From Mesodorylaimus sp. YZB2_4 (taxonomy: Eukaryota; Nematoda; Enoplea; Dorylaimida; Dorylaimidae), in the NCBI GenBank assembly GCA_030248295.1, contig JASANH010000455.1:224147-288146 (forward strand): 64,000 nt of DNA. The letters run 5' to 3'. Position numbers and translations under genes: made by a program. The notes beneath the pieces are model-generated. The model was not told the origin of the DNA. It was given only the letters and a program-made list of their open reading frames with translations, and searched no databases. Of the stretch, positions 4,301 to 64,000 are shown piece after piece. Each line of letters opens with the position of its first letter. Position 1 is the first letter of the stretch.

Positions 4301-7300
4301 CTTGACACTCATCAGAGTCGGTGCCATTCTCGGTCCAGACTGTTTCCTGTCGATGGTCATCTCGTAAGGGCTCGTCATCTTGCTTAACGCCTGGTCATTG
4401 TTGTCGTACACGACAGCATACCGAAACTTGTACTTGTGACCAGGTTCCAGTCCATCGATAGTTCCAGAATGCGAATGACTGGGTAATTCTTGATCGAGAG
4501 TCTTCCACGGTGGCTCCTTCTCGTTCTCGCTTCTCATTTTCTTGTATTGAAGTTTGAAAAACCTAATGCCCGCGTTTGCTTGCCGTTGTTCCTGGCTCAC
4601 CCTCCAGCGCAACAATACACTCGTGTTCGAGTATCGAAAGACCGAAGGCGCTACCAATCGTATCTTCTTCCTCTTCGCACTCTTCCTCGCACCCGACTTC
4701 TCGTCATCAGTCTCTTCATCTTCTATCGAATTGGCATGTTGCGTCCTCGACGGCGATTCGGGTTTCGTCCGTCCATGGTCGATCACTCGCCCTTCGAAGT
4801 CCAAATATGCCTTCGCAGTGGCATTGCCGAACGAGTTCGTAGCCACGCACGTATACCATCCACGATCCTGTTCAGTGGTCGTCTCGATGTTCAGACTGCC
4901 CGTCCCAATCCTTTTATACCGCCTCAATGTCGGCTGCTCGTCCAAACTATCATCGTCATCTTCTTCATCGTTCGGGTCGTAGTCCACTATCCGTTCCCCG
5001 TCCTTCAACCAGTATACGATATCCGTATTCGGGCTGACGTGGCACACAAACGTCACCGACGACCCCACAATCGTCGTCTCGTTTTCTGGACCAGTTTTAA
5101 TTGTGGGCATATGTCGCACCACATTTTCGCCACTTTCTTCTTGACCATTCCTGGCATTGGGAGCAAACGACGAATCCACGTACAAATTATCGCTGTCAAC
5201 GGTGCCGTCATCGAACGGGCCTCGCCCACGAACCATACATTGGTACACACCCTTGCTCAGCGTCGATTCGGTCAAAGTAAAGCTCCACTTCGGGGATTCG
5301 CCACTTTGGAATTTCGTTTTGACAGGATTCAATGGTTGAGACAACAACGGACGGCCATTCACCCAGAATTCCAAATCGGAGGCCAGTCCAGTCGATGCCT
5401 GGCATGTTAAGCGATAGGCCAATCCGGATGACGCCGATTTATCGTCTTCTTCCATATCACGTTCGATGGTCAATTTTGCATTGAGCGGGTCTAAAACGAC
5501 GATCAATTATTGCAAGATCAGCCTCAACAAAACCCGTCATCTCTTACCATAAACTCGCAAGGAATACATGATATAACGAGCCGAGGAGGCGACCGACGAC
5601 TGCTGTCGCTTATCACCTGAACCTTCATTGACGTCCCCGCGGCAAATGTACGCCCCTTCGTCCTCCTTCGAAACGTTGTATAAAATCATGTTTCCCAAAA
5701 CGTGTTTCCTCTTCTCAACGGGCGGTAATACAAGCCCATATTTCTCCCACCGCACAGCCACCGTCCGACCAGCGCCACTGATCACAATGCACTCGAACGT
5801 CACATTGTCGCCTCGCCTAGCATCCACGATATTCCGTTGTTGCAAATGCGGCGATGGTCGAATGATGTTTGCGTGATCATCGACCGCCGATGGCGTGACT
5901 CCAATAGGTACCGCATCATCGATGACGACCAACTCGATTGGTTTTGAATCACGGGATTGAGCCGACACAGGATTCATAGCACGACACACGTACGAGCCAC
6001 GGTCCGATTTCTCCACACGACCAATTTGCAGTCCACTTGGCGTCAGGAAATAACGATCTAAAAGTCCCCCGTACTCACTCCCATTAGCCTACGAAAACGC
6101 GTCTACTGTATTTACCGTGACTAAATATGATCTCTTTCGTTCCATTCACAACGAACCAAATCTTGGCTGGTCCCGGCAGGCTTTCAGGAGTGTGACAAGG
6201 CAAATAGGCAGTGTGTCCAACGACAACACGTTCTTCACTCGACGAATCGCCCTTGAACTTTTTCAAACCTAAAACAGTATTATTCAATTAGTCCTTAAGT
6301 TCCAGGCCACCAAAAGTCGATCTTACTCGCCAGCTGTACTTGCACCGGCGGGCTCAAAACGCTGCCATAAGTAGGCCACGTAACATTGCATGAGTATTTG
6401 CCGACCATCAATTCCGCGTCAACACTCGCTTTCAAAAGCAGCCTAAAAGCACAAATCAGTTCAAATGACCAGAAGCTAAAGCTGCCAACCCACGTTCACC
6501 TTCTGTATTGGACTTCGTACGAATTGTATCCTTTTTATGGACATCCAACCTCACACTACCAACAGCAAACCTGACTTTAACACCTGCTGACTTGACCTGA
6601 TAGCCTGGACCAGACAGCACAGGTACCCCTACAAAAGTTCAATTCACTGACCAACTGGCCCCTGAGTCACGTCTTCTTCAAAACCAAGCCTCAATAAAAC
6701 TTGAATTAGCAACTGCTACTTTCTCTGGTCATAACTTATCACCAATTCACTTTTGCAATGTTCCCCTAATCGCACTTGGCACCTGACCTGAACTGTCATA
6801 AAGGCCAATTGGGGGTTTCTCGAAAAACACATTGATTACGCCCGAGAAGCTACCTACATTTTTTAACACCACCTAGTGCCTGTTGATCGCTGACACCTTT
6901 AGTGTGGACTTTTTAACCAGTCGGCTGGAAGCGCCCGTTACCTGGCGACTAGCATCGTCAAAAACTCCAATTCCATAGCCCTACCCATTTTTCCTCCACC
7001 TCTCGGCCCCTAACAGCCATCCATTCGTTACACAGCTTACGACTCGACAAGCCTGTCAAAACATTTGTTAGCTTACGTGTCTCGATCGACTTGAAATGAT
7101 CCTTGTGGCAGTCCGGCTTTGATCACGTCCTCTTCGTTGTACTTCCATACAATCTCCCGAGTGCTCTCGCTCAACCGAACCGACGATGGCAGACCAATCG
7201 CGCAACGTAAACGTAGGTCGTGCGATTTCGAGACATAGAACCCCGATCGCTGTCCATCCACAGTCTCGATCCCAACATCGGGTGCATCGAAAACTAAAAA

Positions 7301-7427
7301 ACCCCCAATTATCAAAACCATCATGCCAACAAATAATTCACTTACTTTCCGTTTTAAGCGCATGCACGTGAGAATCGAAATGAGGTAGAAGACATAAAAC
7401 CAAAGCGGCCACTCCGACTCGCCACAT
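1393..7427 (-). CDS. CDON/BOC/Ihog-like Ig-FNIII single-pass receptor
   Basis: Twelve exons join in phase into about 1336 aa: 7346-7427, 7077-7293, 6327-6442, 6116-6268, 5548-6057, 4301-5490, 4050-4175, 3856-3994, 2819-3139, 2669-2757, 2230-2614, 1393-2075. Exon 1 encodes a signal peptide (MWRVGVAALVLCLLP). Five Ig domains with paired Cys follow (roughly residues 30-600; DRGWYTCVATN is typical), then two FNIII domains (about 635-845), a TM helix near 920-945 and a ~390-aa Ser/Pro-rich tail with a PPPPPAP run. The first FNIII (FKLQYKK...W...YKFRYAVVYDNNDQ) and second (GFVIMYRRIYYAD) resemble Ihog/CDO/BOC, which act as Hedgehog co-receptors at the cell surface. Five Ig plus two FNIII differs from Ihog (4+2) and CDON (5+3). 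Robo-type receptors are the main alternative. Family assignment is by eye; the exon chain itself is firm. Confidence 0.85.
3463..3741. repeat. three long poly(C) runs in an intron
   Basis: C runs of 17, 14 and 15 nt lie at 3463-3479, 3569-3582 and 3727-3741, inside the intron 3140-3855 of the receptor gene. The first two follow similar units (a tcccgc(t/c)...gaggttgtg...aggta block at about 3420-3462 and 3527-3568), so the block looks locally duplicated. On the transcribed (minus) strand these are G runs. Confidence 0.85.
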
Positions 7428-10400
7428 TTTCACCTTCTGACCGCTAACCTAAAATCAAAATAAATATTGTAAACGTCACAAGTGACCGCTGGTCAAGCGG
7501 CGCCGGTGGTCGGTCACTAGACTACAGTCAATATTGACCACTCGCAAACTGCTTATTATATTCGAGCCGTCCAACTTTCCAAACTTCCCTCCCCTCCTTC
7601 CCCTCAAACGCGCCAATTGTGCCATATCACGCGTCCTCCTTTTTCATCTGTATCGTTTTATTGACGAGTTCAGCCGCCATTAGATGCCCATTTCCAATCC
7701 ACTCCAGCTGTCCCAAAGAACTTTGGGTCCCCAAAAAAACACCATCATATTCATAAAAGATCGTCATCATGACGCCTCGTCTACTCTTACAAAAACCAAC
7801 CACGCCTATTTCGCTCCAAATCTTTATGCCAGGTATACTTAACGTACGAACGTAAAAAAACCATTTCTGGTGCCAATGCCATAAACCCATTTAGATTTGA
7901 GCATCCAGCCGCCAAAACATTTTCTCTACTACATTGTATACCAGGCGAGGCGAGGCGAATTCCGTTTAGAACATTTTCAATAACCATAAAATCGCACATT
8001 TGCAAGGCTAACAGGACTTTTTATTCAAAGACTCATTCGGCTGGCAATCTCGGAACGGAGGACCAAAGTGAAATGCCATTCTTATACCTCTCGTTTCCAA
8101 TATGAGTTTTACTAAAGCCCACTATTCCAAAAAGGGCCAATTTCCAATACTTGTAAGCTCCAATAACTTTATTGCACATACTTTCCTAAACTATACTTCC
8201 AATACCCCATAAGACTGACGGGCGGAAGATTAGGATCGAACCCTGGCCTCTAATGTTTCCTTCCGCTCAATGTAAAACGCGAACTTCCTATGCCAATCAA
8301 AACCAGCAAATTATATCCCAGCCGCCGGATTGAATTTCATCCTACCAATACTCCTAATAGGAAAAGGCGATTAGCATTACAGGAAACGAGCATTCGCAAA
8401 AATCCGACATTTTTATCAATTAGAGAAACACGAACTCGCAAAAAACAGGAATCGTATCGATTCATATCGCAAAGATAATGATTCCTTTGTCAATAACCCC
8501 TTTCCACGAGATCAGCATTCCAAAAAACCCTCTCTCAAAGATGAGCCCCTTTTACGGCCCCAAACTACAAAATTAATCTTCTCAAACTCTAAAAAAACTC
8601 AAAATCTCAGAAAATTACAGGTAGCTACATAAATCGCCGGCACCAGCTGCACACCGTACCAAACCAATCTTCGCGTCTTCGCACACAAGTTGCCTCGTTG
8701 GCCGCGTTGGCCCCGTTTGCACAGGTTTCTTTCACATGTCCAGTTGGACGCGTGTCAAGTCCTCATAAACCCGTTGGCCGCACATATTTCTTGCTCGCCC
8801 TCATATTCCTCCCATTCCTCCTCCATCCCCCCGCTGACCATGGATGTCGGTAGACTGCCATCCTCGCCCCGCTGACAAGACGCGACAAACGTCCAAGACC
8901 AGACGACACGCTCAACCACGACCTTCCAAGAAAAAGTCGGGAAAATCACAAGAAAATATCAGAAACCATTTGAAAAACCAAAGGCGCTAATGACACGCGC
9001 CAGAACACCCGCTGCTTGCAAAGCAGAACTCTACGCACCGTCAACACATATTGCAGCCAGACGAGACTGCGCCAAAGCAGCTATTTGCACGAATACCATA
9101 TGACCGTCACTAAATTGCCATAATCCTTCCCATTTTTCCTACGTACATTGAATGAATTCGAGCAAAACTTTGACTTCAGCTTCCAAGTACCCATATCCAA
9201 ACCAGTCACCATCTCTGGCTCTCCCCTAACCTCCTCATTGCCTCGCATTGTCTTTGCACACCACACAGCCAAATTCAATTCTCACCCGACCAAAAAAGGT
9301 CAAAACAATTCTCAGCCGGCCCTAATCATCGCCAATGGTTTCCTATTCAACACGTCTCCCTTGTCAAAAACTGCACCATTCATGGATACAACGCCCGAAA
9401 TAAGTGGCCAAAAACCAATGCCCTCCTCGGCCGTCGAGCAGGTGTAAAGGTGCAAAAGAGCGGAAAAACGAGACGTGTTCGCGTCAAAATTCATACGAAA
9501 AAAATACGCGTTAAAGCTCCTCAACAAGCTTCGTAAGCTACGGCTTATCTGCCTCCACCTTTCTTCGCCAAATGAATGGAAAAACTCAAAGACGCAACGC
9601 CCCGAAAACTTAAAACAAACCTTCGTCTAGCCCGCACGTCTGACTTTATTTTTACTTCGCCTTTTCTAACTGACTGATGTAAATACACCAGCTGTCGACC
9701 AACTCCTAAACCGAGTCAATACAACCGCCGATTTTTCATACAAAAAGGAATTGATGATCCGTCCAAACTCAAATAACATTTACATACAAATCCTATTCAA
9801 TCAGCACTGACCACTTCGCCGCCTACAAAAAGACGACTCAAAATCCTTGTCCTCCTCAGTTCAATATCATCCACTGTTATTATTTACTAAACCACAGCCC
9901 CACGTAACTATTAGCTTACTTACAAAAGCACCTGAATAAAACGACAGGTGTGCAATTTTCAAACATTCTCAAACGTAACACAAGCTTAAAAATATTAGCC
10001 GCGCAGAGGCCACCTAATCCACTAAACCTTTGCCTTTACAATTCAACGTCCATTCGTTTTCGCACAACACAACTACACTGGACCATCGAATTTCGATTTC
10101 ATACATCTAATGGACACTATTGTGTTGTCTTCGCGATCCACTGCACACACGTTTTCCTACATTCTCCCCCGCTGACCACTGAATGACCAAATGTGGACAA
10201 ATCGACTCAACAATTAGCCTCCTCCCTTTTCATCCTATTTTATCAATAAATGCACAAACCGACGAGACCCCGCTTCGGCCATTCCCATCCAAGGCCCACT
10301 AACCGCTCCTTCCTATCATAAACTAGCAAAACCCCAAATGGACATTGCACAAACCACTTCTTGTCCGAAACAAGCTGCTAAGCCAATCGCCATCCACTTG

Positions 10401-13400
10401 GCTCAAATCCAACAATCACAGTTCCCTCCTTAAAAGAAGCCACTTTGTAAACACCCGATCCCCTTGCGAACCATCAGCGGATCGTCTGATTTAAAGTACG
10501 GTACCTCCGACCACAAATAAGGTTCGCACCAGGCCACAAAAATGACCAGGCGAAAGAAATCACATCCAATCGAAGCCTCGAATATGAACGACCGCGACAT
10601 CTCCATCTATCCGAGGAACACAAACGAAAAAACCCAGCCGACAATACATCCTCGTCTGGAGGCCATTTTTCACAACTCTTACCACAACCTAAATGTAGTA
10701 CTTCTCAGTCGAATATGGCACGTTACGCGACCTGCGATTTACAGTTCGTTCCCCGTCTCTAAATGGGCATATATTCTACACCCATCTACTATCATCATCG
10801 AGATCACTACTCGAAGACGGAGCACGTCGAAAATGGCATGCAAAACTGGTCCTATCCACTTCGCCTCCACCTTTTCCACTGAGAAAAAAGAAAATTACCA
10901 ACACAAACTATAACCGTCGCTCACTATTCTCAACTCCCCAGTGTCCACTAGTGAATCGAGAAATTGGGCGGACCGAGTCAAATGGACACTGCATAATGGA
11001 CGCTAAACGCAATGCACAAACACGGGAATACGAGGAAATAGTAGTTTTGTTTCCATTCGCTTTATCCGTAAACAAATTCTTTTATTGTTGATAATGTGTA
11101 TGCACAGTATTCCATAGCCACTATATATACATCCTATTCACAAGCATGAACGCACCAGGTACTGCCATTCTAATATGGCTACCTATTCCATTTCCACGCT
11201 CGCCACTCCGTAGATGATACGCAAAGATGGGCGCCCCAACTGCTAATGCGATAGCATAGGCACGGGTCACAACAACCCTTCTTCAATCTCACTGCCACTC
11301 CAACCAAAAAACCCAGCCAACTTTAGTATGGAAAAGGCAAGATCGGATAAGATTCAAATGCATCTCGACCATACTGTACACACGAGTCAGTTACCATCCA
11401 CTCAAAGAACACCTTCGATCGAAAAGAAAAATGGACTTTTTGATTTGCTATGGGACTGACATCCAATTACCAGCCTCGACACTTCCTCCCTTGATGGCCT
11501 TTTTAATTTGTCCTTTACTCAACACCGCCTACGCATTTCATTTCATTCGTCCAAGCGGCAAATCCCTTTAGTTTTTTCACATTTCACCCTCACCTCGACC
11601 AATTGCACACCACCAGGCACCATCTCGACCAAAAAGTAAATAAGTACAAATGTCTACGGCCCGTTGCAAATTATCGGCATATATCTAATTTCCACATAAC
11701 AAATACACCACCTTCAACAAACTGAACTTTCCCTCCCCTCCCCTCCACCCCACCCCAAAACCCTCGCCTCATCATTGAATAACGGAAGCGTTAGGGCAGC
11801 TGCAATGCAAACGCATACCGAGTCTAGGGTGCGGTTATTGGGGGTGGGAAGACGATTAGCGCCTCGAAAACGAGATTAATGGCTTGGTGAAAAGGTACAA
11901 CACAAGCCGGCATTCGTCAAATGTTCGAGGCAGCAAAAATTTCGAAAACTCAACACTAACACCCGCCTATTATTTTTACATCGATAACCCAAGCCAGCGG
12001 GTCTCGAATCGACAAAGAAAACTTGCCATAGCCAACAAAAACCTATTCATCGGCCAGGTAGCAGGTACAACGAACAACGGCTAACTTGCGAGCTAGCCGA
12101 GCAGAAAAGAAAGTTTCGAAAAATAAATGGACGGCACCCGATTTTGAACCGACTGGCACGAGAAGGAGAACCTATCCGTCGAATAAAATATCCAAGATAC
12201 GAAAAAATGAAGAAGCTGCTGCTCGTCTCGTGTACAAAACCATCAAAAACGATGCTCGATCTGGTCAGTCGAGCGACCGATTCATCGTCTCTCTTCTCGT
12301 TCACTGCATAGACGACTCGTTAAAGCCGTAAGCGAATTGAACGCTTATCAGTGGCCTTCCATCGAATTGGAAAAATACGGATCCTATCTCCTTTCGAACC
12401 GATGGCTGGCCATTGGTCGATGCATGACTACGCATGCTCCTATTCAAGTCCTAATACGCGCATTTTAGCAGTGATTCATTTCTATTGTCCAGCGACCAAT
12501 ACAGCAACAGTCCAAAAATGGCAAAAACAGATAAACGCACGAGCAAAACAAGGCGGTCCTCTTTTGCACCCTGAAGACTCGAGTAAATGGGTAAACAAGA
12601 GACACGAGTTTCGTTAGGGACACACTGACCACTGGCTGGGGAGGGCAGCCCGGTTATGATTATTGGTCGACCAGCTATATAAGAGCGAAGAAGCAAACAG
12701 ATTTTACACGCTGTTTGATTGCGCGCCTTGGGTACGGCCGCGTCCAATATAAGGAAACGATGGCACGTTTCCGGTCCTTACAAGCGAAACTAGCGTATTG
12801 AGAACAAACAACAAGGCGCATTTTCTCATGCGTCCGTACGACCGGTCCGGGTGCTAACAAGCGTACACCCACTAATACACAATATAACGTAGCCGTCTAT
12901 GGTAATTGAGTCAAACGGCGTCCGCCCACAAATTGAATCAAACCACCCGCCGTTGCCCACAAGCGTATCCCCAGCTTAAGCATAGCAATAAATTCTCCAA
13001 TATTATCATACGCAGAAAGCGTATGACCAAAGCACAAGCCAAGCATCTTCACTGAAGCAAGCCAGTTTGATTGATAAGAGCTCGCTTTTTTCATTTTCGC
13101 ATATGTAATTCGCGTCTCCAGCCTTAGGCTGAAAACGGAGCATGAGAACCAGAGAACTGGGATAACCTAAACCGATCACATCGCGCGTTCCTAATTCGCG
13201 GCCCTTGTCCCAGTCACGAATTTGTTCATCCTTTTGCCTTTTGGGTCGAAATCACGGTTTTCCATTTAATGCGCGCGGGAATTAGAAAGAAAAGGGCAAA
13301 ACGAATAAAGAAAATCCATAATACACTGCCAAAAGCCTAACTGCGTTGTGATTCAGCTCTCAAATTCCGACGCACCAATCACGGGGATTAACAACAAAGA

Positions 13401-32498: not shown

Positions 32499-34129
32499 AT
32501 GGCTCCAATCCTGCTGCTCGACTCATCGAGTGCCATGACCTTCGACTGGTCCCTGTTGTTCCCAGTGGCGATCTCGGCTTCAATTATGGTCTCGTTGGTT
32601 CTGGTCGTGCTGATGTGCTGTGGGGCTGCTGGAGGAGGTGGGGAGAACATGCGGCAGCAACCATACGATCCCTCGAATGATCCGTTCGAAGATGGTATCC
32701 ACGTTGTTCTGATGTCCCCAGAAAGCCCGTACTTTTGCGAAGATTGCTCCCGGACTCGATTGGACGAAGAATGCCCCGACGAGCCGAATCACTTCCGAAG
32801 CGACGTCTGGTTGTGGTGCAAAGAAAATAATAACATCATTGCACCACAAGCAAGCGACTACGGTACCCGACTGCACTACTACGATCACGGAATGCAGCCG
32901 GTCGACGACGAGAAAAAACGCTCACGACCGCAGGTGACAAAGGACCAACTGCGTTCCATTGTTCAAGAACGTGAGAGCATGTACGAATCTCTCCGTCATC
33001 GCACCACAAAACCAGAAAGATCGCGTCGTAGCAGGCGCAAGCCGCGAGTTCAAAGTGAACGCTCGACTGTGAGTACTGCTTTGTGATTTCGCTCCAGCTT
33101 ATCTCGCTGAAGGATAAACTTTGTTTCAGAGGGCAGACCTGGACGAAAAGTCTGAAAAGAACAAGTCAGAGTCTGGTGCTAAACTGCCCACCAGGATTCT
33201 GACTCCATCGACTAGGACTCGGACTCCAACGACCAGGACTCCCACTCCAGAAGCCAAGTCTCGGCCTCAAGCGATCAAATCTCAGGCTCAAGCGGCCAAG
33301 TCTGAGGATCTGATGAACAAAACGCAGGCGGATGTCAAAAAGATCCCAACATCAGAAAATAAAGAGGTTCCGAAAGCGGGCAAGGTAAAGACGAATGCGC
33401 CCAAAGCCGCCAAAGTAAGACATTCGCGTTGAATTTTATAACCTGGAGACCCATAGTTTGCCTGGTCTTTGTAGCCAAAAGCCCAGATGACAGTGATGCA
33501 TTCAGAGGTAAGCCAGCCTGCATGACGTCCTTCCATACATATAAGCAGCAAATGTGCGATTCAGGAGAAAATGCGGGCTGCCGCTCTGAATCCGGCCTAC
33601 CAGACGATCTACGAGGCCAGGTCAGAAGTGTTCGATCGGGTATTGTATAATTGCTTTATATTGTCTAGCTGAGGGATGATGGAGCTTTTTTCAGCCCGGT
33701 GGGAAAGGTGACAATCGAGCCGTCGAACAGAAAACAATGGTCCGCGAAAACCGCGTCTTCCAACAGAAGACGATGGCTCGCGAAATCGGTGGTGTTGCAC
33801 CGGCAAGTTTTAGAGCCACGATTCGTGTTTGTGTGGAATACAGAACATCCGTTTTAGGGCCATGCTCCTCAAAAGACTGTGGTTGTTCCCGGAGGGGAGA
33901 CGGAGGTAACAGCTTGCTGCTGTCTCGTATATCTTCAAAATATACGCTATTTTTTAGAGACGAATGAGAGCGGCTGCACTCAATCCGGCCTATCAGACGC
34001 TCTACGCTATCAACTCGAACGTGTTCCAAGAAGGAGAGGTAAGCAGTTTTACAGGTGTCATTTCTGTCGCGTTGTCATTCGTTATTTCAGAAATCGAGTG
34101 CCCATGGATCCGACTCCGCTGTGCACTGA
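32499..34129 (+). CDS. NPAYQT-motif single-pass membrane protein, paralogue A (unrecognised family)
   Basis: Eight phase-0 exons give 412 aa: 32499-33068, 33130-33414, 33475-33507, 33565-33639, 33695-33802, 33858-33905, 33958-34038, 34091-34129. MAPILLL starts a ~17-residue N-terminus, a TM helix at about 18-39, then CC and a Gly run (possible palmitoylation). Residues 56-165 form a conserved region shared with paralogue B: YDP..DPFEDG.HVV.M..ESPYFCE.CSR, NHFRS.(V/L)W.W, IAP, HY.DHG..PVD. Exon 2 is basic and Thr/Pro/Lys rich. The motif MRAAALNPAYQT(I/L)Y occurs at about 300-312 and 377-389, with QKTM(V/A)RE twice between them. NPAY is an NPxY signal and YQT(I/L) a Yxx-phi signal, both known as endocytic or PTB-adaptor motifs, so I infer trafficking or scaffolding. 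The intron after 33802 has a GC donor (gcaagt). No function is known to me. Confidence 0.82.
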
Positions 34130-34979
34130 GGCGCCATGCTTGCCCGATCGCTCAGTCGATCGATCATCTAGCTCCGTCAATGCCTGTGATCTCCCAGTTT
34201 TGTGTGTTTTTGTGTACTGAACATGATGTGATCGTTGAGTGCAAAGAACTCGATGGGAAGAAAAAACTTCCGTGCGCTGAAACAAAATACATGACGGACT
34301 CCTGGTGATGAGTGGGCGTGGCTTCCAACGCTCCATCAGCCTATTAGAAAGCAACAGGGAACAGATGCAGAGATAACCGTAGAGGGAGTACGGATCAAGG
34401 GACCCCCTGAGGCTGGAAGTTTGTAAGGGGGTATATAAGATCTAGTTTATGTTTGGCATGATAATGATACTTGTGTCTGGTGCATTGACCTTTGCCTGAT
34501 TGGCCTGTCTCAACATTGGGTACAAGTTATGCTGACTGGTTCCCTTGTCTTCTTTTGTTTTGTGAATTGCACTGATAACTTGATGTCGGTGTCTTAGTTA
34601 GTCTACTCGGTGTTCCTCGTAGAGTGCGGTGCGGAGTAAAACCTACGATAATCATCCGACTTGTTGTGAGACTAGAGCCTTACAAGTTGCTTCGATCTCT
34701 ACGAGGGCAACTTTAACACCAAAACTTTCACGAGAGTCCACATCAGCTCGTTTTTGTTCACATGATCGCGAACACGTTGAGTTCAGACGCACCGATAGAT
34801 GTGCGCTAATGAAAGCAAGCTTGTAACTGCGGAGTAGAACATCATCGTACGCTGCGATTCAGTTTCTTATCCATCGCTTGTTCAGACACTAACAAGTAAG
34901 ACGTGTCACACACGCGATAGCACAGACACAAGTCACGAATACTGCTGACCAACTGGATCGAGAGTTCCCTTCTTCAATC
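34130..34979. other. spacer between convergent paralogues, LTR-like patch
   Basis: Contains the two 3' UTRs. A TATA match (tatataag, 34432-34439) preceded by GC-rich gaccccctgaggc and followed by a T/G-rich tract gives a promoter or solo-LTR look between about 34306 and 34700, but no terminal repeats or target duplication were proven. Confidence 0.35.
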
Positions 34980-36179
34980 TCAATCGCGGTAGTTGGATTG
35001 AGCCAAACGATTGCCTCCACCACCGCCGCCACCACCACCTTTCTATGAACAAGTCGGATAGCGTGGATTTTTCGCTAAAGAATAAGAGGAAGGCTTACCG
35101 TCGCAAACACGTCAGATTTGGCATTGTATAATGTTTGGTAGGCTGGATTGCCTTGAGCTGCCTTCATTCGCCCCTAAAATGAAAAAAAGTTCTGGAATAT
35201 GTAACCGGGAAAGAGAAAAACTTTTCTCACATCGTCAGCTCCAGGGCCAGCCATACTCGCCATTGGAGGTCGTCCCTAAAACGGGCAGTCGTATTTATAA
35301 ACTCTCAGATGCCTCGATGCACGAGTACTTACCCCTCCGCCACCTACAGATTCGCGCACCATGGTTTTGTGTCCGTCGAATGCTGCACGACCGCCGCCAC
35401 CGCCACCACCACCTTTGCCAGACTAAAAATAAAACCATTGCAAGATTTCAAGTTGGCAGAGAGATAGACATACTTGATCGAACACGTTCGACTTGGCACC
35501 ATAGATGGTCTGATAAGCGGGATTCTTTTGAGCTGCACGCATTTGAGACTCTCCAGCCGCCGCAGTCGGTGCAGGTCCCCTGGGGGCCTAAAATAACTTA
35601 GTAAAAGCTGGACAAAAAAAGATAACCAAGCTTGAATACGCTTACGCCACGACCAGATGGTCCCTGCCGCGACGATGAGAAGGGTTTCGAGGGTCCCTTC
35701 TCACGGCCAGTCTGGTACTGACTTTCGCGTTGTTGGATCTTGGAGCGAAGCTGCTCACCAGTGATGGTCCCTCTTGAGAGTTCCTTGTCGACTGGAACTT
35801 CGCCATGGTCGAAATAGTGGAATCGGGTGTGAAAATCACGAGCGCGCGGAGCGATGTGACCAGGCTGATCCTTGAGCCAACGCCATAGCTCGCTACGAAA
35901 ATGATTTTGGTCATGCGGCAGTTCAACGTCGATCATCATTCGACTGCATTCTTCGCAGAAGTAGGGACTCTCGGCAGTCATGATTACAACGTGCTTGCCA
36001 TCTTCGAACGGGTCAGCCCTGGGGTCGTAAGCTGGACTGGCATTGCCACCAGCGCAGCAGCATAACAAGATTACGAAGACCAACGAAATGGCCAGTGTCG
36101 CTGAAAGTATTACCGAGAAAACGGCAGGTGACCAGTCGATCGTTATCACATCCATCGAATCGATTACGATCGGAGCCAT
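34980..36179 (-). CDS. NPAYQT-motif single-pass membrane protein, paralogue B (unrecognised family)
   Basis: Six phase-0 exons give 306 aa: 35646-36179, 35474-35587, 35333-35422, 35231-35275, 35099-35173, 34980-35042. The layout copies paralogue A: short N-terminus (MAPIVID), TM at about 17-39, CCC then Gly, the DPFEDGKHVVIM...ESPYFCEECSR region (about 51-150), then MRAAQKNPAYQTIYGAKSNVF (A-type module, Asn at 200), a poly-Gly stretch with KTMVRE, a short GRPPMASMAGPG exon, and a second module MKAAQGNPAYQTLYNAKSDVF (Asn at 270). The C-terminus is another poly-Gly run ending NRLAQSNYRD. It lacks the basic exon 2 of paralogue A. The two genes point toward each other, as in an inverted duplication. 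Exon boundaries around the repeated modules match those of A, which supports both models. Confidence 0.82.
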
Positions 36180-37140
36180 TCTTCACACCGGAACAAAGAG
36201 ACTTGCAATCACGACGGAACGCGCTTGCGCAATGACATTGGCGGATTCATTGTTCCTACCCTTGTCACGCTGTACGTTGCCTCCACTTCAGTGACCCCAA
36301 AATCCTTAAAATCAGCATGCCTAAAATAGGGTCCTGCTCTGAAATATCTACATCTCCTCCTCGGGTCGCTTTTAGAAATAATTTTTAGTATTGCACAGAC
36401 GCTGTTACATATGTGCTTCCAGAAATTCGAGCACTATGGTCCCTTCCTGTAAGAATCGACTACTTAGAATCGACCACATAGTTAATTGACCGAATTTTCA
36501 AAAATGACACCACCTGAACTTTTGTCCTGTTGAGTCTGCACAAAACGACTTGTTCTTTCGATAAATCCATTTATGAGGTACCCTTTCAGCCTGCGGAAGT
36601 TCAGGTGGGGTCATTTTTTCAAATTTGGCCATCCCAAGGTCTCTTGACATGGCATTTCAAAGGTCACGTACAAGTACAAGTGTTCGTGTGCATTGCAACT
36701 CTTCTATTCTAAATTCTTTCAGCGGTCGATCAATATTTGCCACGAGGCCCCATCAAATACCCTGCACACGGGTGCTTGAGCGGTTAGGCGAGCAACTGTT
36801 GCTGATCGGTCTTATTGTGCCATTGATTACATACAAGTATGACGCAGACTTTCTGCAGTGACACGGCACAAGAGGTGTCTCTACACTGCAAGAGGACATG
36901 CTAGTCAATATGCGTTAGAACACGGTCGGAACAAGTGAAAAAAATTAAGTCGCACTTCTGCATTTGATCTGCAACATCTCCTTACCATCTCGACCACATC
37001 CTATTTAGCATAGCGAATGGCTCCAGTCTACATTATGCATTATAATGTCTGCCGCACGTCCATGCTACTACTACAGTATGAGATGCTAACCTTTACAAAA
37101 GGTCGTCGCGGACTGTTCAGTTTATCCTTTCCGTGCTCGC
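36180..37140. other. spacer between paralogue B and GTP cyclohydrolase
   Basis: No gene. Besides the foldback at 36500-36618 it should hold the promoter of the minus-strand NPAYQT gene (right after 36179) and the 3' UTR of the minus-strand cyclohydrolase gene (before 37141). Confidence 0.45.
36500..36618. repeat. foldback: 22-bp inverted repeat, 75-nt loop
   Basis: Arms 36500-36521 (aaaaatgacaccacctgaac, then tt) and 36597-36618 match as reverse complements at 21 of 22 positions, with weaker similarity extending outward. It lies about 320 bp upstream of the start of paralogue B. Confidence 0.85.
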
Positions 37141-56545: not shown

Positions 56546-56812
56546 TAGGATAAGGTCTTATTGATAACAGGATGATGCATGTGATGAGGCGCTATTACAT
56601 TGAAAATTTGAAGGATAAAGCATCATACCCTCATAATTTACTCATTTCTTAAGAAAGCAGGACTTAAGGAAGAAGAGTAGGTAGGCACGGATTACAATCA
56701 TGCTGGTCAGGCTACTCAACCAGAAGCATTGCGGTATAACGGCGAAGTCGGACACTCTGCAGCACAACTGACGAATAGCCACCGAATATTCTTGCAGCCA
56801 CTGCAGTCGTCA

Positions 56813-57246
56813 GGCGGCCGCGGTGGTGCAGCGGTTCGGCATTCGTCTCTCCGTATTGCTTGGGAGCGAGTGGCTGGACTCGTCCCGGGTTCAATCCCCG
56901 GTGATGGAGGTCGGTTCGCGAAACCATAAAACCTCGCTGAACTTGCACGCCAGGCCGTGGGTGACTCACCCGGTACCGTCGAGGTGCTCCGAGTGGAGAG
57001 ACGGAAGCAAAACGAGTGGACAGTCTCGGCTGTCGAGCACCGACAGGGCTTAAAGCCCGCCCGCCATCGTCCGAGGAAGTCGGTATCCTGTCCAGGATGC
57101 CCTCGCGTGGAGGTGCTCCTAGTGGAGACACGCAGAGGGAAGCTGCTGTGTGTGCCGGTCCCCGCACAGCCTTGCTTTTAAAGTTTGACTTCTGGCCGGC
57201 TTTTGGCAAAACGGGCTTCGGCCCACAAAAATTAAAAAAACAAAAA
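56813..57246 (+). mobile_element. tRNA-derived SINE, copy 2, with 13-bp target duplication
   Basis: About 434 bp. It has a perfect A-box (tggtgcagcgg, 56824-56834) and a perfect B-box (ggttcaatccc, 56888-56898), an internal body shared with copies at 49393 and 63590, and an A-rich 3' end. Perfect 13-bp direct repeats actgcagtcgtca flank it at 56800-56812 and 57247-57259, which defines both ends and shows target-primed insertion. Confidence 0.95.
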
Positions 57247-57259
57247 ACTGCAGTCGTCA

Positions 57260-58119
57260 TTATGTCAGGGTCAGGCACAAAACCTACAGCAATATCGCAG
57301 TCGAAATATTGGTTGTTCGCAGGCATCACTTGAGGCTGGCCTCGAGTTCTTGGTCTGAACTTCTCTGAATAACATCTTTTAAGCTTACATTGAAACTGGG
57401 GCTTTGCCAAAAAGAAACACAGCCTAGGATTTAAATGGTAATATTGCTCTTGCGCAGTCCCTGCCCTGCACCATTAGAGTTGCTTTTTTGCAATGTAAAA
57501 CAAGAGCTATCCGCCTTCTTCAGCTCGCGCCAGTTTTCGGGGCATGCAACTTTTGAAAATAAACGATGAACTAGTTGCGCCCTTCGCGGTCTCGATGATG
57601 CTGAAAAAATGTCATCAGCAGTGCAATCTACTCTCCCTCAGGCAGAATGGCGCACTAGAGTGACACTATGAACATACTGCCATCGCGGCATTACCACGCT
57701 ATCGCGCAAGGCCTTTTATATATGAGGCATGGTGCGTCAACGATCAAAATCTCATCGGCACGATTACTATCGTAGCGGACAAGGACAAAACTAGGACGTG
57801 TGGTACAAAACTAGAATAGTTGGAGTCCAACGGCTGTCTCACTTTTTTCGCAGGGTTTGATACAGATATACTCGTGATTCATTGGCGTTGGCATAGTGAA
57901 CTGTTTTTCTGACGGCGCAAAGTCTGCATACCGATGACTTTTGCAACCGGATGGGCTAAGAAGCCATTTCTGGATGCCTTTGAAGGAGCCAGTTCATCCA
58001 TTTAGAAATATACAGCAACTCTTCCAAAAGGAGTCAATCTGTCATCCTATAAGTTCAATGATAGTCGTCTTTCCCTTCAGCTTCAGTCACGAAAGACTAC
58101 AGGTGGGAATCATAAAAGA
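57260..58119. other. 5' flank of bestrophin 1
   Basis: No gene. The part from about 57870 to 58119 is the upstream region that was copied to 52950-53199; its similarity between copies is as high as in the first codons. A tttatatatgag element lies near 57714. Confidence 0.55.
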
Positions 58120-59534
58120 ATGACCATCACTTACTCGGAACAGATCCGTTTTCTTTTGACCCGATGGAAAGGCAGTGTTTGGAAAACCGTCTGGAGACAT
58201 TTGCTAAATTGGCTCATCGCCTGGTACATACTCTACTTCATCCTCAAGTTCGGTCTTACACAAGATCAGCAGAAGGCGGCGGGCGATGTAGTGGCCATGT
58301 TCGATCAATTCTGCCGCGATTTACCACTTTTCTTCATCCTTGGCTTCTATGTCGGCCAAGTGGTGACTCGATGGTGGAGCATAGTCATGTCTATTCCCTG
58401 GCCTGACAGCTGCGTGGTTGTGGCCAACTCGTACCTTTTCGATGGCGATCACGTAAAAGCTATTCGCGAATCGGTGGCACGATGGTTGGTCCTGTCCGAA
58501 GCCATGGTTTTCCGTCAGATCAGCCCTCGCATTCATAAACGATTCCCTCAGCTTGATCACTTGGTTGATGCAGGGCTGATGACCAAGCAAGACTGGTATT
58601 GATACAAAATATTAAATGCAAAAATACCCGCTGGCAGCTTCCATTGAACTGGATCGTGGACAAAGTCATCTTCCCCTCCGAAGCGCAGCCTGTTGTCAAA
58701 GTGGCTTTCTGCGGGAGTGTTAATGCCTTCCGAGAAAAGATGCAGCAGTTGTTCACGTAGGTTGCCAGCCACATTGATTCCCTACGGATCCAGAATTTTG
58801 TAAACTGCTTGTAAGCTCTAATGGTCAGTGGACACAGTGACCCAAGTTTTCCGTAGGTTGTAATATTTGCTACTGCAATGGGTTAGAAACGACCTGCCTG
58901 AAAGTCATACTGTCTTATTATAGGTAACTAGAATGCATGACAGCGATCTGCACTTTGTTTCAGCTTCGACTGGATCGGCATACCACTAGTGTACACGCAG
59001 ACGGTTGCCATCGTGGTATACGGCTACTTCCTCTTTGCCCTCATTGGTCATCAGTATGTCGGAAAGAAAATGGATCTGTTCGTGCCCTGGTTGTCCATCC
59101 TGCAGTTCATTTTCTTCGTTGGCTGGTTCAATGTTGCAAGAGAAATGATGAACCCGTTTGGTGAGGGTTCTGTACTCTTCGCAAGCCTGCATCTGACTGA
59201 TTCGTGAACCCTTTCAGGCGAAGATGAAGATGATTTGGAACTCAACTGCATTCTGGATCGGCATGCTGCCGTCGCTCACAGTCTCGCAACTGAAGTCCGG
59301 GAGGAATCCCCCGATATCATTTTCGATGAGCAGATCCGCCGCGATTTGGGGGAGAAAATGGGCAATCAATTGACCTACAGCTTATCAGCTTCTAAAATTG
59401 TTAATAATCCGCCCAAGATGCGCGCGCACTGCGAAGTTAAGCAGGCCGAGCAAGCACAAGTTAAACCACCTCCGCCGAAGCCAACAGAGAAGAATACGAT
59501 GTGGAAAACTAATATTCCACCAAACTTCTTTTAG
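58120..59534 (+). CDS. bestrophin anion channel 1 (carries a 1-nt frameshift)
   Basis: Three exons: 58120-58756, 58964-59160, 59218-59534. It starts MTITYSEQIRFLL and keeps the bestrophin core: RWKGSVWKTVW, LPLFFILGFYVGQVVTRWW (pore neck with the two conserved Phe), IPWPD, KRFPQLDHLVDAGLMTK, IPLVYTQTVAIVVYGYF, HQYVG, and the Ca2+-clasp FGEDEDDLELN. Bestrophins form pentameric Ca2+-activated chloride channels. Comparison with the paralogue at 60260 shows one base missing around 58592-58604: translation meets TGA after MTKQDWY (160 aa), yet the following frame continues with KCKNTRWQLPLNWIVDKV and splices in phase. With the base accounted for, the length would be about 383 aa. So this is either a young pseudogene or a sequence error. 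The C-terminal tail is short compared with vertebrate bestrophins. Confidence 0.88.
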
Positions 59535-60259
59535 GCCTGTAAACGGGCCGAAATTAGCGATGATGTTTTGCTCAGATCTGACAGCCCCGTTAGAGCAGAT
59601 TACATTTTTAGCTGGTGCACTGGTAATCATGTCACATGTATCTACTCTTACCATTAGAACCCTTCAATTCTTGTATTTTCTCACCAGTGTTCTACCAGCG
59701 CAATAGAATGCCAAGGTATTTTTTTTTTGTGCCAGTCTGACTGTTCTGTCTTTCGCACCTTCACTTGGCAAGAGCTCTAGTCACGCCTAATGTCTTTCCG
59801 CCCTCACCTTCTTCAGTCGTCTAAACATACGTTGTCTCAAGGTCCTTGGCAGTTCAGTACATTGCAATCCAATTTGCTATCTCAAATTTCCTGTTCGCTC
59901 ATCTGTACAAACCACGATTCCGGTTAGCTTGACAATTGGTGCGCTAAAGGTAAACAGTACCTTACCCCCCGGAAAAGCGCAACAAGCTGGCGTGCAGCTA
60001 GCCTGACATTTGACTTGGCCTTGCTCACTTATGTTTCCATCAGCAGTCCATTGTTCAGTGAATAGGTTCCTGTATTTACTGACGCGGCTGACGTCCACGC
60101 AGGAAGCCATTGGAAAGGGTTGCCAAATACAAGCTTAGGAAGCTGTCTCTGCTGGATAAAAGACTGCCTCACTATTGACCTCACGTAGTCCTCAAAGTAG
60201 TCATTCATAGTGCATAGACTTTTGGTCTTGCGAAGAAAGAATCACCACAGAGAGTACCA
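59535..60259. other. spacer between tandem bestrophins
   Basis: About 0.7 kb with no gene. It must hold the 3' end of bestrophin 1 and the promoter of bestrophin 2. It is not similar to the 5' flank of bestrophin 1. Confidence 0.5.
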
Positions 60260-63039
60260 ATGACAATCACATACTCGGAGCGAATCCACCTTCTACTATG
60301 TCGATGGAAAGGCAGTGTGTGGAAGACAGTATGGAAGCATCTGCTTATTTGGCTGGTCCTCTGGTACACTATCTATTTCATACTTCGCTACGCAGTCAGC
60401 GAAGGGCAGAAAGAGGATGTGGGCAAAGTGATAGCCATGTTTGACGGCTTCTGCGATGACCTACCTCTCGTCTTTATTCTTGGCTTTTACGTTGGCCAAG
60501 TAGTGACTCGTTGGTGGAGTCAGGTCATGGCAGTAGCTTGGCCTGATGACATCGTTGCTGTAGCAAATTCATGTTTGTACGACGGTGATCATCTGAAAGC
60601 CATGCGAGAAACAGTGGCGAGATGGATAGTATTGTGCGAGGCCATGGTCCTACGCAAGATATCGAGCCGTATAAGGAAACGGTTTCCAAAGCTGGACCAC
60701 TTGGTAGATGCTGGTCTCATGACCAAACAAGAATTGGACATAGTTCGACGCACCAAGTGCAGGAACACTCGTTGGCAGATGCCGCTGGATTGGATTATCG
60801 ATAAGGTCATATTTCCGGCTGACATCGATGCCATTGTCAAAGTGGCCTTCGTCGGCAGTGTCAACACATTTCGTGGTCACATGCGAGAACTATTCACGTA
60901 AGTGTCTTTCGTTCTCTGTAATGCTCAGCAACAGTTTTCAGAAACTAGTGTGAACTGATCTCCGATTTTCTCCAGTTTTATTCGTTCACCATCCGGCATT
61001 CTCAACACAGAACCACTCTGCTCACGGGACCATCCTGTCCGCACAACATTCACATGAGGAAGCGAGCACAGACCAAACGAGACATCACTGATCTCTGCCG
61101 ATCACGTTCCTTCTTTTCTTCAAGCAGCCACCGAGAGGGATCGCAGAGGACCGCGATGGACGGTTTTCGGTTTGTTGACGATGCTTTTGCTGGCTACCAG
61201 GGAGGCAGATTTGACGCTGACGGCGTCGGCGTCGCTCGGTTGCGCAGTCTCGCTCGCCGTGTGAACGCTGTTCAAGGCCAGACTGACGCCCGACACGTTC
61301 CGAGGCCGCAGTTTCTGATCATCGTCTGCTCCGGCGATCGCGCCCTTCTGAAATGGAAGTAGGTACTTAACTAGAAAGTAGATGACTAGCGAGAGAGTAA
61401 CCCCCTTACCTGCGTGGTGAGCTGCAACGGCGGAGCGGCGTTGGCAGCCATGGATTCATCGAACAAGGACGCCGATTTGGCCATTTGTCCACCAATCGAT
61501 TTCGCTTCTTCCACAGCAGGAGCTGGCGTTTCGCTCGTCGGAGCCACAGCGGCGGGTGCCAGTTTCGGTTGATCGTCGAGCAAAGTCGGCGTTTCTTTCT
61601 TTCCTCCACCGCAGGCGCACATCAACGTCGCGACCACCAAGCCGGCCAACACGATGATAGCGACAGCCGCCACGAGGGCCATGGCCACGATCGGCGAATT
61701 GACGCTCAGTTCCATCATCGAGCCGTGCAGGGGAGCCATTTTCGTTTGGTCAGTCTTCTCACGGGCTCACGACCTCATCAACCGACCGATCTTGACGGCA
61801 CCACGCGCTCAGAGTGACCCTAGAAATTCGCTCCCTGCTCGTCTCCGTTGTAATGTCATACTGCCAACTTCTTTGGTCCTGTCTGCATGATGCCAGTGTA
61901 AGGTGGCGCAGAAAGGCAGTCATCCCCCATTCCATCATTACTTATGCAACCCACGTTTATCGGGATGCGCACATGTTTCTTTACCGCTACCCCAACGCAC
62001 AACGCGTCCCGACCGCTTGCGAACCGTGCAGGGAAGCCATTTTTGTATAATAAGTCTTCTCGTTGTAGCTGATCAACCGTCCACTGTAGACAATTCGCAG
62101 ACCCTCAATGAATATTGTAGCCTTGACTCTATGTCCTACTTTATCACACGGGCTACAATTAGTGATGCTACTCTCCTTGATCTTGCAGATACGATTGGAT
62201 CAACATCCCACTTGTCTACACACAAACGGTAGCCATCGTGGTCTATGGCTACTTTGTCTTCGCCCTTATTGGACACCAGTATGTGGGCAAGACCGTCGAC
62301 CTCTACGTGCCTTGGATTTCAATCTCGCAATTCATATTCTACGTCGGCTGGCTAAATGTGGCTCGTGATCTGATGCATCCGTTTGGCGAAGGTATGTTGG
62401 TGCTCCGTCAACACCTCACCTTGGCTTACATGTCTGGGATAGGCTGAGCGGATTGCAGCTGTTGGCTCAAAATTTTGTGTTTGTCGATTGTGGTACGCAA
62501 TAAAAGAAATATGGAAAAGGTAATCAAGTCACAAGTGGATACTGTATGATCGGATAGATTGTTCGAGCTGAAATCCACCCAGCCACCTGAAATCCACCTC
62601 CTGAGTCTTGTTTTACAACCCCGAGGTCGGGTCCATACAAACGAACCTTTGACCTATCCTCCTTCTCCCCTTGCTCAGCTTCAAGATCCTAGACTCATTG
62701 GATGTTTTTTTAGACGAGGACGACGTCGAACTGAACTGCATCTTGGATCGCCACGCCGCAGTGGCCTTTAGTATGGCCACTGAGGTGAGAGAAGAATCGC
62801 CAGATATAATTTTCGACCAAAGCTTGCGCAAGCAGATAGGTCAAAAGATGGCCAACAACCTGACCTACAGCGTGGCAGCCACTAGAATAATAAATAACCC
62901 ACCGAAAATGCGTGCTCACATAAACCTGAAGGACGAGAATGAACACACCCAAGTGTTGAAGAAGCCACGCCAGGAGAAACGTCATTGGATCCTGCAGAAA
63001 CTGCACTTCCGAAACTGGACTCCACCTAATTTTTTCTAG
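60260..63039 (+). CDS. bestrophin anion channel 2 (intact)
   Basis: Three exons join in phase to 388 aa: 60260-60897, 62189-62391, 62714-63039. Features: MTITYSERIHLLL start, RWKGSVWKTVWKHL, DDLPLVFILGFYVGQVVTRWW (neck; Leu, Phe, Phe at the positions of human BEST1 Ile76, Phe80 and Phe84), WPDDIVAVANS, KRFPKLDHLVDAGLMTKQE, YDWINIPLVYTQTVAIVVYG, and the Ca2+-clasp FGEDEDDVELN. The core ~370 residues match the usual conserved part; the long vertebrate C-terminal tail is absent, and the protein ends WTPPNFF, like IPPNFF in its neighbour. Predicted role is a plasma- or endo-membrane Ca2+-activated chloride channel. Intron 1 is 1.3 kb and houses another gene on the opposite strand. Similarity to bestrophin 1 and the order indicate tandem duplication. 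Confidence 0.95.
61120..61739 (-). CDS. nested small single-pass membrane protein (unrecognised)
   Basis: Two exons (61410-61739 and 61120-61347, 62-nt intron with gtaagg...cag) join in phase 0 to 185 aa. The gene lies wholly inside intron 1 of bestrophin 2 on the opposite strand. MAPLHGSMMELSVNS is followed by one TM helix at about 18-41 (AMALVAAVAIIVLAGLVVAT), then CACGGGKK and an Ala/Pro/Glu-rich cytoplasmic part with no domain I know. Start MAP, a short ectodomain and Cys/Gly just after the helix recall the two NPAYQT proteins at 32.5-36.2 kb, but the rest does not align and the NPAY motifs are missing, so common origin is only a guess. The whole second exon stays open for 75 codons in the spliced frame, which supports it being coding. 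Confidence 0.68.
62008..62082. repeat. partial copy of the nested gene's 5' end
   Basis: A ~70-bp stretch resembles 61719-61796: both contain cga(g/a)ccgtgcaggg(g/a)agccattt, then a(g/a)tcttctc and gatcaaccg-like words. It includes the reverse complement of an ATG followed by codons for MASLHGS, parallel to MAPLHGS of the nested gene. Same orientation, about 0.3 kb away and still inside the bestrophin 2 intron. Confidence 0.7.
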
Positions 63040-63589
63040 TTAGATCAGGGGTTCAGTTCACGAAAACGTGTTGGTAGCTCATCACATAAAAGAAACTAGG
63101 AAATACGAAATTGTATGGATGAAACTCGCTCATTCTTTCATGTGTGTTGTGCTTTCGGGTAGATTCTGATGCTTTTCGCGGTGATGACAGAATGAATGAG
63201 AAGGAGGAACCTCTGTATTTTTGCGAGGAAGCTGTGCGTTGATTCAACAGTTAGACTGCATTTTGATAAGAAATGACACAACACAAACTTCTCCCACGCT
63301 GTCTAACTGTACTGTACAGCAAGGATGATTGTGGAACCCATGCTAGCTTTGCACGTGACCAGCACCTGAGTTATGGTCGATCGTAGATCGTAGATAGCAT
63401 GGCCGACCGAGGCACAACCTGAGGTCGTGAGAGAGCACAAGCGATATCACTGTATGTCACAATGTGGCATGGTCCGTTACAGTCCCCCTCATCCAGTCAC
63501 CACTGCAGGCGAAACGACATACATGGAACGCAGCATTGGGCCCGTGTGGAGAAAGAATCGTGAATCGACGTTCATCGTGATTATGTTTT
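63040..63589. other. 3' flank of bestrophin 2, no gene seen
   Basis: Holds the 3' UTR of bestrophin 2. No other supported feature; tcgatcgtagatcgtagat near 63378 is a small direct repeat. Confidence 0.5.
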
Positions 63590-63890
63590 ACGCGGCCGCG
63601 GTATTGCAGCGGTTCACATTCGTCCCTCCGTATTGCCCTGGGGGCAATTGGCTGGACTAGTCCCGACTTCGGTCCCTGGGGACGAAGGTTGGTTTGCAAG
63701 CCACAAACCCTTGCTGACCGCTCGCGCCAGGCCGAGAGTGGCTCACCCGGTACCATGGAGGTGCTCCGAGTGGAGAGACGGAAGCCGGAAGCCGACAGTC
63801 TCGGCTGTCGAGCACCGACAGGGTTCACAGCCCACTCGCCATCGTCTGAGAAAGTCGGTGTCAAGTCCAGGATGCCCTCGCGAGGAGGGA
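63590..63890 (+). mobile_element. tRNA-derived SINE, copy 3 (3'-truncated, degraded)
   Basis: Begins cgcggccgcggtattgcagcgg (promoter head) and follows copy 2 through tcggctgtcgagcaccgaca and ccaggatgccctcgcg, then similarity stops near 63890, before the 3' tail. The B-box region is altered (ggtccctgggg). No target duplication was found. The remaining bases to 64000 show nothing recognisable. Confidence 0.85.
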
Positions 63891-64000
63891 CACATTGTAG
63901 TTACAAGAAATGATGTACCTGACGAGTCGAACACTCGACCGCAACTGCGCCTAGCGTGAGGTCCCCTAATCGTGAGGGCGTGCTTCTAGCCCTCGCTGAC

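Follow-up and report, generated by a model that had tools for sequence, protein, structure and literature searches.

INTRODUCTION

The genes of the DUF236 family usually contain several repeats and are, as described in PMC8480184, largely restricted to nematodes. According to the same source, they were co-expressed with major sperm protein (MSP), and in one or both of two species their signal was highest in the MSP-expressing regions; a role in sperm was put forward there as the authors' hypothesis (PMC8480184). In C. elegans, 13 DUF236 genes were reported, F27C1.3 being an example, which code for proteins of 200–320 aa, 10 of the 13 having a predicted signal peptide, and the family was entered among putative secreted proteins (PMC3534327). 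F27C1.3 was tried as the gene of let-614 and could not be confirmed as such (PMC4039747).

Another described system with a comparable anatomy is MPOP (MSP polymerization organizing protein) of nematode sperm, a 48 kDa protein according to the title of a cited work. In Ascaris, MPOP is integral to the membrane; at the leading edge it is tyrosine-phosphorylated and nucleates MSP assembly (PMC4105102), and it recruits the kinase MPAK (PMC3203103); it is described in similar terms in PMC4400581 and PMC11269235. A homologue in C. elegans was still to be found as of 2014 (PMC4105102).

Here we describe a pair of genes from the nematode Mesodorylaimus sp. YZB2_4. The whole stretch of DNA that was analysed, 64,000 nucleotides of contig JASANH010000455.1, is called the window, and all positions refer to it. 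A sequence-only reading of the window had proposed that two paralogues of a possible undescribed membrane-protein family face each other here.

RESULTS

Gene models and exon layout

Two convergent genes were modelled from the sequence, with splice sites picked by eye. Gene A starts with the ATG at 32499 (+) and consists of eight exons (32499–34129) coding for 412 aa with a predicted mass of 46.0 kDa; gene B starts with the ATG at 36179 (−) and consists of six exons (36179 to 34980) coding for 306 aa, 32.6 kDa predicted. The final letters of the two stop codons, 34129 and 34980, are 850 nt apart. The models bear out both the start coordinates and the tail-to-tail orientation given by the sequence-only reading. 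Its claim of matching exon phases also held, since all 12 modelled introns are in phase 0. The introns are short (51–61 nt) and have T-rich AG acceptors, and their donors are GT in 11 of the 12 cases and GC in one, located after 33802 in gene A. The exact hexamer AATAAA was absent from both strands between the two stop codons.

By-eye comparison revealed that the exon order agrees, exons 4, 5, 6, 7, and 8 of gene A corresponding to exons 2, 3, 4, 5, and 6 of gene B. In gene A (all exons on the + strand), exon 1 (32499–33068) codes for a short N-terminus, a hydrophobic helix, a Cys-Cys pair, and the juxtamembrane block. Exon 2 (33130–33414), a low-complexity K/S/T/P-rich linker with 21-nt tandem repeats, is extra compared with gene B, in which no counterpart was seen, and it is followed by exon 3 (33475–33507). 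A unit with the motif NPAYQT lies in exon 4 (33565–33639), the motifs KTMVRE and KTMARE in exon 5 (33695–33802), which precedes the GC-AG intron, and, after exon 6 (33858–33905), a second NPAYQT unit in exon 7 (33958–34038); exon 8 (34091–34129) includes the stop codon. In gene B (all exons on the − strand), exon 1 (35646–36179) has the same composition, with Cys-Cys-Cys after the helix. It is followed by exon 2 (35474–35587) with the first NPAYQT unit, exon 3 (35333–35422) with a poly-Gly tract and the KTMVRE motif, exon 4 (35231–35275), exon 5 (35099–35173) with the second NPAYQT unit, and exon 6 (34980–35042), which codes for another poly-Gly tract and the C-terminus and includes the stop codon.

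Paralogy and selection in exon 1

When gene A was compared with the window by tblastn, gene B was found with E = 1.1e-51 and 50% identity, and the reciprocal search from gene B to gene A gave E = 4.8e-46 and 51% identity. The likeness of the first exons is far above chance, and the two genes are paralogues, as had been proposed. The MAFFT alignment of exon 1, which spans nearly the full exon length, showed 54% identity over 169 columns. For the 162 aligned codons, pS was 0.77, that is, saturated, compared with a pN of 0.31, indicating that both copies are old and that both have been retained as proteins. Exon 1 of the two genes is under purifying selection.

N-terminus, hydrophobic helix, and flanking charges

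Both proteins begin with 16–17 aa devoid of Lys and Arg, after which comes the one strongly hydrophobic segment of the chain, with a best Kyte–Doolittle 19-residue mean of 2.7 in A and 2.85 in B, both of these windows of 19 residues starting at residue 23. A Cys-Cys pair closes the segment at residue 41 in A, and Cys-Cys-Cys does so at residue 42 in B, with Gly/Ala residues coming next; the tiny N-terminus, the single helix, and the Cys/Gly residues noticed earlier were found in both proteins. Residues 1–17 contain no K/R, and two (A) or three (B) D/E. The net charge is negative in the 25 residues that follow the helix (K/R vs. D/E, 1 vs. 5 in A and 2 vs. 4 in B) and positive in the whole remaining chain (+12 in A and +6 in B). 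These flanking charges give no clear positive-inside support, and the topology is not settled by the charges beside the helix.

Structure prediction had been suggested as a check in the sequence-only reading. AlphaFold, run on the exon-1 block of gene B with a two-row alignment, placed a helix at residues 18–43 with some confidence. The rest of the block was predicted poorly (mean pLDDT 43), and, with this alignment, nothing confident and no apparent fold was obtained outside the helix.

The juxtamembrane block

The exon-1 alignment contains the same motifs in A and B, namely DPFEDG, ESPYFCE.CSR, NHFRS, and HY.DHG, which confirms the shared juxtamembrane block of the initial proposal. Neither Pfam and NCBIfam (A and B) nor the PDB sequences (B only) yielded a convincing match to the block, which would be a second conserved region absent from Pfam. 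Within the reach of these three collections, the proposal of an undescribed family stands for this block; it is weakened by the tail repeat, which resembles DUF236 at scores under the cut-off (see below).

CxxC (C75 and C78, B numbering), H93, H121, and H125 are identical in A and B. The B sequence reads C-x2-C-x10-H-x3-H, its first His (residue 89) being Asp in A, so that the CxxC is common to the two proteins and the paired His is not, and the pattern differs from that of a canonical C2H2 zinc finger. Several weak Pfam matches were set aside as chance: Mob_synth_C (E = 0.093 with full-length A, E = 0.026 on residues 67–88 of A), FCSD_central (E = 0.034, full-length A), and zf-C2H2_DHX34 (E = 0.41, not near its cut-off). 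NCBIfam gave two weak matches, MoaA (E = 0.051, A 67–89) and BsaP (E = 0.034, B 67–83), both far under their cut-offs. At E ≤ 10, gene B matched 17 distinct PDB sequences, 12 zinc-finger proteins and five others, all of which were judged chance; the E-value of the best C2H2-finger match, 2.4e-5, was summed over several fingers, and in the two alignments examined each single finger had an i-Evalue of at least 37. Comparison of the exon-1 block and the repeat units with prokaryote genomes and viral contigs produced 37, 53, 27, and 21 pattern stretches and no confirmed relative, an outcome that was to be anticipated with an animal gene and is of little informative value.

The tail repeat and its match to DUF236

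The tail of each protein ends in two 21-aa units of the form M[RK]AA..NPAYQT[IL]Y...S.VF, a feature that the sequence-only reading did not contain. Thirteen of the 21 positions are identical in all four units, one more identical column lies outside the unit, and both the tyrosine of NPAY and the tyrosine four residues later are present in every unit. PTB domains are known to dock at NPXY motifs. The NPAY of the four units makes the tails of A and B similar to the NPXY receptor tails that are ligands of these domains; the motif is short and general, and the likeness does not imply common descent.

DUF236 (PF03057; gathering cut-off, 25 bits) was the best Pfam family for full-length A (E = 0.0027, 17.9 bits), and no DUF236 match was obtained for full-length B, whose query was one Gly short. 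With the tail of A, DUF236 was the only Pfam family matched and the score rose to 23.1 bits (E = 6.3e-5), this query having been excised after the full-length match was already known; the other tail, the single units, and the majority sequence were likewise scanned after that match. The tail of B gave E = 0.25, and the majority sequence of the four units E = 0.11 (12.7 bits). No query reached the gathering score that formal membership of the family requires, the tail of A coming closest. When single units were compared, the second unit of A (A2, exon 7) matched DUF236 with E = 0.0011, or 0.00064 with other ends, at model positions 10–30 of 31, and the second unit of B (B2, exon 5) weakly with E = 0.11, or 0.07 with other ends, at positions 6–30 or 7–30. 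The first units (A1 in exon 4 of gene A, B1 in exon 2 of gene B) gave no DUF236 alignment in Pfam with either choice of ends; thus, two of the four units match. Since none of 30 shuffles of A2 matched DUF236, the match of A2 is not due to composition; two other families appeared among these shuffles, once each, with E = 0.05 and 0.12. Taken alone, the E-value of B2 is no evidence, and its match carries weight only through the clear paralogy of B2 with A2. In A2 and B2, the repeat runs in register along much of the DUF236 model, and each protein has more than one repeat, two units per gene, one of which is matched by the model on its own.

Surroundings of the gene pair

Ten neighbouring frames were scanned, and GTP cyclohydrolase I, an amino-acid transporter, a bestrophin, a secretin-family receptor, Ig and fn3 domains, and a RING finger were found, as well as a tectonin match under its cut-off; 79 further frames included a sugar transporter, a second bestrophin, and a hormone-receptor domain. 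The neighbours are ordinary animal-type genes, and nothing marking a sperm gene cluster was found among the frames scanned (10 + 79). These neighbours and the short introns with their T-rich acceptors are compatible with a nematode origin without proving it. When the GTP cyclohydrolase was compared with the PDB, the four best chains were within 2 bits of one another and gave no hint of the phylum. The Rfam scan yielded no family, and one tRNA-Glu was found.

Some other features of the window were recorded. An inverted repeat at 36487–36631, about 300 nt upstream of gene B, has 35-nt arms with 86% complementarity and a 75-nt spacer, and could be a small transposon remnant. Two bestrophin-type chloride-channel genes lie in tandem at 58006–58599 (+) (position taken from its sequence) and 60218–60898 (+). 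The translations of two long open frames, 56715–57473 (−), which had no Pfam match, and 63460–63900 (−), are 47% identical, and both frames may derive from one dispersed repeat. The strongest GC skew of the window, −0.28 to −0.32, extends over three consecutive 2-kb steps at 6001–12000.

DISCUSSION

Compared with the described DUF236 proteins, A and B are alike in that their repeat, present twice per protein, is in register with the model and in that they have a similar size and an N-terminal hydrophobic segment. They differ in that their scores are under the gathering cut-off, with B hardly matching, and in that their juxtamembrane block is covered by no Pfam family; moreover, gene A, with 412 aa, exceeds the size range reported for C. 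elegans. An N-terminal membrane anchor may be scored as a signal peptide, and so the anatomy described for the DUF236 proteins may agree with that of A and B. A and B probably represent a divergent version of a family that is already known, though poorly understood, and not a wholly new family.

The best explanation, to which we give somewhat better than even credence, is that A and B are divergent, duplicated membrane scaffolds of the DUF236 type with the NPAY tyrosines as docking sites. One nematode gene of the DUF236-repeat type, in a divergent form, would have been duplicated to give two inverted copies. Each protein would cross the membrane once, with the very short N-terminus outside and the long tail in the cytosol, and the Cys-Cys next to the helix may carry a lipid anchor. 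The NPAYQT[IL]Y units at the end of the tail look like docking sites of the NPXY type, on which tyrosine phosphorylation could act as a switch. Such proteins would most likely function as a sperm membrane scaffold recruiting cytosolic partners. The step that places the tail in the cytosol is weakened by the charges flanking the helix and by the listing of DUF236 proteins as secreted, which speaks against a cytosolic tail (PMC3534327).

Several other explanations have to be weighed against this one. The pair could belong to a membrane-protein family of its own, so far undescribed, in which the tail repeat came to resemble DUF236 by convergence on a short motif. We regard this as unlikely, albeit deserving serious attention: every DUF236 match is under the cut-off, gene B hardly matches, the common unit is just 21 aa long, and the juxtamembrane block lacks a convincing match in Pfam, NCBIfam, and PDB (gene B). 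Against convergence, DUF236 is the sole Pfam family for the tail of A, two units match it in register, none of the 30 shuffles does so, and the several repeats, the N-terminal hydrophobic segment, and the size fit what the DUF236 reports say of these features. A long hydrophobic stretch is more typical of an anchor than of a signal peptide. The stretch seen here is long, forming helix 18–43 in the model of B, and the first 16–17 residues of both proteins lack Lys and Arg. Both points make it improbable that A and B are DUF236-type proteins whose tail lies outside the cytosol, either secreted or in an organelle lumen, the hydrophobic segment being a signal peptide or an anchor of opposite orientation; this arrangement would agree with the net negative residues right after the helix and with the putative secreted status and the predicted signal peptides (10 of 13) of the family given in PMC3534327.

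There is a slim chance that the CxxC and His residues make the juxtamembrane block a small metal-binding domain, and A and B membrane-tethered metal proteins. The CxxC, H93, H121, and H125 are indeed the same in A and B, and weak matches from several libraries (Mob_synth_C, MoaA, BsaP, and the C2H2 fingers of PDB) fall on one stretch; on the other side, the single-finger i-Evalues were at least 37 in both PDB alignments examined, no Pfam zinc family came near its cut-off (zf-C2H2_DHX34 being the example), His 89 of B is replaced by Asp in A, and the model of the block is without a fold. That the gene models are partly wrong, or that one copy is a pseudogene, we consider very improbable. By-eye splice sites, one GC-AG intron, and a low-complexity exon 2 present in A only leave some room for such an error, which is opposed by the uniform phase 0 and similar length of the 12 introns, by an exon chain that needed no frame break, and by synonymous change far above replacement change in exon 1.

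Returning to the preferred reading, DUF236-type membrane scaffolds, a bolder idea would link the gene pair to Ascaris MPOP. This is an idea and not a result, and we give it a low probability. The product of gene A may resemble MPOP, having a predicted mass of 46.0 kDa, one hydrophobic segment, and conserved tail tyrosines; the likeness is one of anatomy and size only, compared by description, and gene B, with 32.6 kDa, is smaller.

Should DUF236 proteins prove to be, as A and B suggest, single-pass membrane proteins whose tyrosines serve in docking, a largely nematode-restricted, sperm-associated family without known function would gain a concrete and testable mechanism. Under the same premise, the family would also offer a candidate organiser at the membrane for the actin-free crawling of sperm, an organiser that was still missing from C. 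elegans in 2014.
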